Shown: positions 2,124-2,614 of the stretch, in pieces
Position numbering within the stretch: position 1 is the first letter of the stretch
Layout of the letters: each line of letters opens with the position of its first letter
NCBI GenBank assembly: GCA_016218975.1
Contig: JACRCO010000088.1
Location: 1 to 57,984, forward strand
Origin: Deltaproteobacteria bacterium
GTDB lineage: Bacteria > Desulfobacterota > Deferrimicrobia > Deferrimicrobiales > Deferrimicrobiaceae
Reading direction: 5' to 3'
Length of the DNA: 57,984 nucleotides
Translations under genes and position numbers: made by a program
Notes under the pieces: generated by a model
Database searches by the model: none
What the model saw: the letters and a program-made list of their open reading frames with translations, nothing else
What the model was told of the DNA's origin: nothing

Positions 2124-2275
2124 TGGTGCCGAAGGGGGGACTCGACCGGCTCGCGCTCGGGCATCCATGCCCTCGCTCCGCCGGCGGCCGCGGCGCCTGA
2201 CGCGGCCATCCGTGGCCGCTTTTCCTCCCTTTTCGGTCGCCGGCGCCTTGGAGTTCGAGTCCCCGCAGAGCACCA
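2124..2275. repeat. Fold-back unit 1 carrying a tRNA-Leu 3' end
   Basis: This 152-bp unit is about 85-90% identical by eye to the unit at 2327-2477. Read on the minus strand it ends in the last 22 bases of the neighbouring tRNA-Leu (half T-loop, T-stem strand, acceptor strand and CCA). Its ends are inverted: TGGTGC-N-GGGGACTCGA against TCGAGTCCCC-N-GCACCA. Inside are the hairpins GGGCAT-CC-ATGCCC and GCGGCCA-TCCG-TGGCCGC. It does not encode a tRNA, because the D and anticodon arms are absent. Confidence 0.8.
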
Positions 2276-2326
2276 GTCGAAAAAAAAGGCGCCCAACTCT
2301 TCGCTGAGCGCCTTCAAAGTTTCGAC
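2276..2326 (-). terminator. 51-bp spacer with intrinsic terminator
   Basis: An inner stem AAGGCGC/GCGCCTT (2286-2292 with 2308-2314) is followed on the minus strand by eight T residues. The spacer is itself bounded by GTCGAAA and TTTCGAC, which join the flanking GCACCA/TGGTGC to make a 13-bp outer inverted repeat. Confidence 0.75.
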
Positions 2327-2477
2327 TGGTGCCGAAGGGGGGACTCGACCGGCTCGCGCTCGGGCATCCATGCCCTCGCTCCGCCGGCGGCCGCGGCGCC
2401 TGACGCCGCCATCCATGGCGGCTTTTCCTCGCTTCTCGCTCGGCGGCGCCTTGGAGTTCGAGTCCCCATAAGCACCA
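2327..2477. repeat. Fold-back unit 2 carrying a tRNA-Leu 3' end
   Basis: This is the second 151-bp copy, with the same ends and the same 22-base tRNA-Leu 3' segment as unit 1. Its inner hairpin is GCCGCCA-TCCA-TGGCGGC. Compared with unit 1, the third base of one arm (G to C) and its partner (C to G) have both changed, so pairing is kept. The other fold-back end differs (ATAAGCACCA here, GCAGAGCACCA in unit 1). The repeat period is 202-203 bp. Confidence 0.8.
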
Positions 2478-2528
2478 GAAAATGAAAAAGGGAGCCTCGG
2501 TTTCAAGCCGAGCTCCCATGACATTTTC
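2478..2528 (-). terminator. tRNA-Leu terminator (51-bp spacer)
   Basis: Directly after the encoded CCA of tRNA-Leu, the minus strand has a GGGAGC...GCTCCC-type stem with inner CTCGG/CCGAG pairing, followed by TTTTTC. GAAAATG and CATTTTC bound the spacer and extend the flanking GCACCA/TGGTGC into a 13-bp outer repeat. Its length equals that of the spacer at 2276-2326. Confidence 0.8.
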
Positions 2529-2614
2529 TGGTGCCGAAGGGGGGACTCGAACCCCCACGGGTTTCCCCACCACCCCCTCAAGATGGCGTGTCTACCAGGT
2601 TCCACCACTTCGGC
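2529..2614 (-). tRNA. tRNA-Leu, anticodon GAG
   Basis: Read on the minus strand from 2614, the sequence folds as a class II (long variable arm) tRNA. It has the acceptor GCCGAAG with its 3' partner CTTCGGC, an anticodon stem-loop with loop TTGAGGG (anticodon GAG, decoding CUC/CUU leucine), a variable arm GGTGGGGAAACCC, the T-arm GTTCGAGT and an encoded CCA at 2531-2529. A strong promoter lies at 2630-2658 and a terminator at 2478-2528, so it is an independent transcription unit. Its 3' end is repeated twice downstream in the fold-back units. Confidence 0.95.

Follow-up and report, generated by a model that had tools for sequence, protein, structure and literature searches.

The closest known counterpart of the element described here is the rtT repeat behind tRNA-Tyr of E. 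coli, which has the same anatomy and a weak sequence similarity. In the tyrT-tyrV locus (rtT/RttR, RF00391), tandem units stand behind the tRNA, each of them closing with the 3'-terminal 19 nt of the tRNA and starting with an inverted T-arm (GGGGAAGGAT...ATCCTTCCCC); by eye, a hairpin similar to the P3 of our element (CTC-GA-GC-loop-GC-GA-GAG) and then a P4-like hairpin can be recognised. The E. coli RNA is reportedly released during tRNA 3' processing. In contrast to our element, which is found at most tRNA isotypes and at tmRNA in many phyla, rtT is known at tRNA-Tyr only.

Other known systems share part of these features. MITEs are also short and multicopy, with terminal inverted repeats and with filled and empty sites, but the terminal repeats of the present element are host-tRNA sequence and change from site to site, while its middle part is a conserved covarying fold. 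REP/RAYT systems similarly consist of short folded intergenic DNA with conserved loops, whereas here the ends are tRNA-specific and Y1 transposase is not enriched among the carriers. Integron attC sites and cassette arrays resemble the element in being folded, possibly single-stranded DNA, and in forming tandem cassettes of variable content (here the terminator); however, the GTTRRRY/RYYYAAC boxes are not matched at the arm (GTTCGAG in the tRNA, GGTCGAG in the element) and the target is a tRNA gene. Finally, genomic islands at tRNA 3' ends also target the 3' part of the tRNA and rebuild the gene, but the element has no integrase gene, measures about 200 bp and carries the same core at many isotypes.

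We analysed a window of 57,984 nt, contig JACRCO010000088.1 of a deltaproteobacterial assembly (GCA_016218975.1). An earlier note, made from its letters alone, had described tandem units 3' of tRNA-Leu(GAG), and these were borne out: downstream of the gene, on the tRNA strand, come unit 2 and then unit 1, each preceded by a spacer of 51 nt (Table 1), and the two units have a spacing of 203 and are 95% identical over a 141-nt stretch. Each unit had been said to end in the last 22 nt of the tRNA; indeed, a 23-nt block (CTGGTGCCGAAGGGGGGACTCGA) recurs at positions 2123, 2326 and 2528, and 22 nt of it are, on the tRNA strand, the last 22 nt of tRNA-Leu(GAG). The two spacers are unlike in sequence and both contain a terminator-like hairpin within an outer inverted repeat that runs to GCACCA/TGGTGC. 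The 13-nt inverted repeat that the note had placed around the terminators (GCACCAGTCGAAA / TTTCGACTGGTGC) is 100% complementary, and that of the tRNA-side spacer is longer (86%) and reads GAAAATG...CATTTTC before extending into GCACCA/TGGTGC. Terminator type T1 of this tRNA-side spacer is also present in genome G015, while type T2 of the second spacer belongs to another lineage and is present in genome G008 too. The fold-back of the unit ends was recovered as well (for unit 2, z = -3.3 in an RNA fold and -2.4 in a DNA fold, relative to dinucleotide-shuffled sequences); it is real, but the partner is not an arbitrary one, as the left end is the inverted T-arm of the tRNA (TTCGAGTCCCC) plus GCACCA. 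The description of a non-tRNA body enclosed by tRNA 3'-end copies, with its own terminator, was supported. REP-like palindromes (GGGGACATTCCT...AGGAGTGTCCCC) adjoin unit 1 and were also seen behind a tRNA-Glu of G008 (window 2040-2124; L078; L263).

Table 1. Features of the tRNA-Leu(GAG) locus in the window, with the basis of each assignment.
Feature	Position	Strand	Basis
tRNA-Leu(GAG), host gene	2529..2614	-	ARAGORN; RF00005
Spacer 1, 51 nt, terminator-like hairpin and T-run, terminator type T1	2478..2528	-	direct reading
Unit 2, complete element	2327..2477	-	R1, 94.5 bits over 2338-2468, E 6.7e-20
Unit 2 left end, tRNA 3' end inverted (TGGTGC-TTAT-GGGGACTCGAAC)	2456..2477	-	direct reading; host-specificity test
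Unit 2 conserved motif GCCGASCGANNAGSGAGGAANAG (P3 mini-hairpin and A-rich strand)	2422..2444	-	
Unit 2 right end, 22-nt direct copy of tRNA T55-A76	2327..2348	-	
Spacer 2, 51 nt, terminator type T2, perfect 13-nt outer inverted repeat	2276..2326	-	
Unit 1, complete element	2124..2275	-	R1, 83.7 bits over 2135-2265, E 2e-17
Unit 1 conserved motif	2219..2241	-	
Unit 1 right end, 22-nt direct copy of tRNA 3' end	2124..2145	-	

Searching this genome and its relatives for the unit, as the note had proposed, recovered a family with copies in many other genomes rather than a local duplication. At the DNA level, 17 matches were found across the whole genome, and R1, our own covariance model built without any E. 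coli sequence, identified at least 14 copies, most of them directly 3' of different tRNA genes or of the tmRNA gene. We surveyed all 41 tRNAs and the tmRNA, and found whole or partial units behind Leu-GAG, Leu-CAG, Leu-CAA, Arg-TCG, Arg-TCT, Arg-CCG, Glu-CTC, Ser-TGA and tmRNA; the tRNA-Pro(TGG) copy sits 5' of the gene, inside a duplication of its 5' part. At the 3' sites, the ends match the respective tRNA, as in the copies at Ser-TGA (left GGGATTTGAACCC, right TCAAATCCT), Arg-CCG (GGAGGAATCGAA and CGATTCCTCC) and tmRNA (GGAGTTGAACCC). The partial copies behind tRNA-Arg(TCG) (L010, 1640-1700) and tRNA-Arg(TCT) (L019, 1190-1230) both stop exactly at GGCGCCGCC, which suggests a defined breakpoint within the element.

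The element is about 110-150 nt long and both of its ends are specific to the host tRNA. On the right, the element repeats the tRNA in direct orientation towards CCA, starting at T-loop position C56 in 40 out of 68 cases and at T55 in 14; the exact repeat stops at the annotated tRNA 3' end in 19 of the 68 and reaches 14-50 nt beyond it in several insertions (longer right repeats are tandem copies). At the left end, the T-arm of the same tRNA is copied exactly in inverted orientation, mostly over 9-13 nt counted from T54. When arms were compared with their own and with other tRNAs, the match was 11.1 nt versus 6.1 nt for the left arm and 16.2 nt versus 5.7 nt for the right. The remaining tRNA 3' end is copied directly outside the core, and thus the tRNA gene stays intact.

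We searched a 23-nt degenerate core motif over a genome collection of 257 Gb, where about two chance matches are expected by our estimate, and obtained matches in at least 116 stretches. The matches listed include Treponema and other spirochaetes, Omnitrophota, Deltaproteobacteria-like MAGs, Mucispirillum and another Deferribacterales genome, as well as Goldiibacteriota, Firestonebacteria, Elusimicrobia, Armatimonadetes, Nitrospira and others; a few, such as those in Woeseiaceae and Acidimicrobiales, appear to be due to chance. The element was found here in about ten bacterial phyla. Among the 117 exact-motif matches listed, 75 followed a same-strand tRNA or tmRNA at a distance of at most 250 nt (median 72), 10 preceded a same-strand tRNA and none occupied the mirrored position on the opposite strand. 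The host genes include many isotypes, tmRNA and tRNA-SeC. The covariance model detected 1-13 copies, often in tandem, in each of the 23 carrier genomes reached through motif loci. Within the phylum of the window 39 out of 395 genomes carry the element (copy counts per genome in this survey are lower bounds, as few candidates were scored), and within its family 21 out of 24. None of 369 Gammaproteobacteria genomes matched R1 under stricter filters, and the DNA search for the unit gave no match in the phage and plasmid collections. Only one contig of the viral collection contained the motif (L210; IMGVR_UViG_3300044712_001904), in two copies 176 nt apart. We found no description of the element family in the literature searched, which comprised open-licence papers, and at gathering thresholds Rfam matched only tRNAs.

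The presence of the element differs among related genomes. At tRNA-Ser(TGA), G000 and G003 carry the element and G008 and G015 have an empty site; in G003, one tRNA-Ser(GCT) gene is filled and another is empty, and tRNA-Glu(TTC) is filled, with a repeat that spans from the T-loop to 14 nt beyond CCA. As far as sequence comparison goes, these filled and empty sites show insertion. In addition, the terminator that directly follows the element-free tRNA-Leu(GAG) of G008 lies on the far side of the element in G015 and G006, so the element together with its own terminator has entered between the gene and the native terminator. Terminator types T1, T2 and T3 travel with the units across genera. Among 30 sampled tRNA-linked cores of this family, 22 had their closest relative at a different tRNA (e.g. 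the core at G004 tmRNA and that at G022 tRNA-Leu(TAA), 87%); thus, cores appear to switch tRNAs, with the arms adopting the sequence of the new one. On this sequence evidence, the feature is real, widespread and structured, and apparently mobile.

No candidate for a mobilising enzyme emerged beside the copies. Clustering of the ORFs around 106 loci yielded no recurring transposase, recombinase or other mobility gene, and the ORFs that did recur were limited to common families and to orthologous neighbourhoods shared among related species; nor did we detect an autonomous transposon sharing the ends, as the parent of a MITE. Reverse transcriptase (RVT_1) was present in only 5 of 27 carrier genomes, without association. 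Y1 transposase occurred in 20 of the 27 carriers versus 287 of 395 genomes in the phylum background, that is, with no excess, and was absent from G004, a 100% complete genome with at least eight copies.

The conserved core consists of two branches (P2-P3-P4 and P5-P6) on a stem, P1, and comprises in order P2, the P3 mini-hairpin (CC-GA-SC-GANNA-GS-GA-GG), an A-rich strand, the P4 hairpin, P5 and P6. We tested the structure on an alignment of 51 sequences chosen by the P3 motif and P1 pairing, so independent evidence is limited to P2, P4, P5 and P6. Standard pairs filled 79.8% of the structure cells versus 60.4% in shuffled sequences; the covariation score was 0.400 versus 0.129 shuffled (slid controls at most 0.098), and the structure does covary. 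P2 pairs either by Watson-Crick pairs or by tandem G.A. The cells of P2, P4 and P6 taken together held 592 Watson-Crick, 5 G-U, 5 A-C and 105 G-A combinations, while G-U made up 5.7% of the pairs in 160 distinct tRNAs from the same loci (Fisher p 5e-9, with cells that are not independent). G-U is hence about seven-fold rarer in the element than in the tRNAs beside it, and no commoner than A-C. A structure acting as RNA is expected to tolerate G-U pairs, with G-U exceeding A-C, and the scarcity observed therefore favours maintenance at the level of DNA: folded DNA may be the acting form, or the palindromes may be corrected during replication. We also detected a terminator-like hairpin between tRNA and unit in 26 out of 63 spacers, compared with 14 out of 315 shuffled spacers, which would limit co-transcription.

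A(N)GGA loops were present in both P4 and P6 in 23 of the 51 aligned sequences, including 7 out of 8 from Treponema and 0 out of 8 from Omnitrophota. In Treponema and many Deltaproteobacteria-like members of alignment A1, these loops read AYGGAY/ACAGGATGT and resemble CsrA sites; they are absent from Omnitrophota. TwoAYGGAY RNA (RF01731) has similar AYGGAY loops and was discarded after its model gave no match in window 2000-2700; the model had no match in G000 either, in a search run without a positive control.

Comparison with rtT at the sequence level gave weak signals. R1 matched the E. coli rtT module locally at 12.9 bits (E 0.016 in 2.1 kb). The Rfam RtT model spanned unit 2 of the window over its full length at 15.1 bits, against a gathering score of 45, and had no match in ten other element loci; both matches fall far short of certainty. 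We consider that rtT works alike and is probably related to the element, though the element's membership in the rtT family is unproven and the sequence similarity is weak.

Taken together, we favour, with reasonable though by no means full confidence, an rtT-like foldback element, about 110-150 nt long, mobile but non-autonomous, whose insertion sites are the 3' ends of tRNA and tmRNA genes; of the alternatives that the note had offered, a MITE-like element using tRNA ends fits best. The mobile form may be single-stranded or cruciform DNA with its two branches on P1. Its right end would be joined at C56 of a new tRNA, and the end left free at the base of P1 would be filled in on the attached tRNA strand, making P1 host-specific; alternatively, a later quasi-palindrome correction could have the same effect. 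The copies would multiply in tandem as well, and the own terminator, in many lineages, would keep the tRNA expressible and the insertion nearly harmless. Fill-in running all the way to CCA was set aside, retained as a hypothesis only, since the left arms mostly end after 9-13 nt. Counted against the proposal are the lack of a recurring mobility gene beside the copies, the rarity of reverse transcriptase and the background-level frequency of Y1 transposase in carrier genomes, the uniform length of the left arm, equally compatible with selection on P1 as with fill-in, the varying extent of the direct repeat, and copies that lie away from recognised tRNAs (L015/L016, L018, L020, L049 and L050). 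Whether all this amounts to an undescribed class of mobile DNA in about ten phyla, whose folded strand enters the tRNA T-loop and has both ends rewritten from the host tRNA, with E. coli rtT as a fossil or relative, we would put slightly short of an even chance; there is a substantial chance that the whole family is a new class of mobile element. E. coli rtT, so far an isolated oddity, would become part of a testable family that crosses phyla, and a short element would have a route to target almost any tRNA gene while leaving it intact. Natural pairs of filled and empty sites, together with the covariance model, provide the means to find the mobilising enzyme.

A structured RNA family, made of tRNA 3' trailers that are released by tRNA 3' processing and act in trans, for instance by sequestering CsrA at their GGA loops, would account for the strict co-orientation with tRNAs, the covarying structure, the paired A(N)GGA loops and the annotation of E. 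coli rttR as a small RNA in the same position. We regard it as unlikely: the near absence of G-U pairs and the intervening terminators led us to prefer mobile foldback DNA, element presence differs among relatives, and the GGA loops of the putative CsrA sponge are not conserved in Omnitrophota. The CCA-ended structured RNA family, as stated in the earlier note, went unsupported on the same grounds of terminators and G-U scarcity. A reading that we find somewhat less plausible still has cassettes, each made of a tRNA 3' end, a terminator, the left arm and the core, circularising and integrating site-specifically by a tyrosine recombinase at the 21-22 nt of the tRNA end that cassette and target share. 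The direct repeats bounded at C56/T55 and, in 19 of 68, at A76 agree with it, as do the terminator types that accompany units across genera and the larger stretches, delimited by tRNA 3' halves, that follow tRNA-Leu(GAG) in G008. However, tyrosine recombinase integrases at tRNA ends are usually specific for one site, and here one core is common to elements at all isotypes; the host-specific inverted left arm would go unexplained, and the neighbourhoods show no recurring integrase gene.

Target-primed reverse transcription of an element RNA into a nicked T-loop seems very improbable, even though the direct repeats of about 35-40 bp at filled sites, from C56 to 14-19 nt past CCA, look like target-site duplications; it is opposed by the few carriers with RVT_1 and by the G-U depletion. 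A local tandem duplication of the tRNA 3' region, without any mobile family, would agree with the near identity of the tandem units 1 and 2, but is refuted by the occurrence of the element at many further tRNAs, both in this genome and across many phyla, and the two spacers come from different terminator lineages, leaving it hardly any credibility.

We made some further observations away from the typical sites. In class II copies off tRNAs (L015/L016, L018, L020, L050 and L150), a fixed hairpin (GGAGCGAGAACC...GGTTCGAGCTCC) replaces the tRNA arms, and those of L150 are tandem repeats. The copy at L049 (G013:C131, near 1470-1750), also off a recognised tRNA, is flanked by a direct repeat of about 30 bp (CGAGCAAGATCCCGTAAAATGGTNTCRTAG), and its target resembles another hairpin (GGGA...TCCC). 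Finally, in L074 (G008:C58, reverse-strand 1413-14629), a 13-kb stretch contains, between ordinary genes, several repeats of tRNA-Leu(GAG) 3' portions, each about 45-50 nt long, resembling the borders of successively integrated islands.
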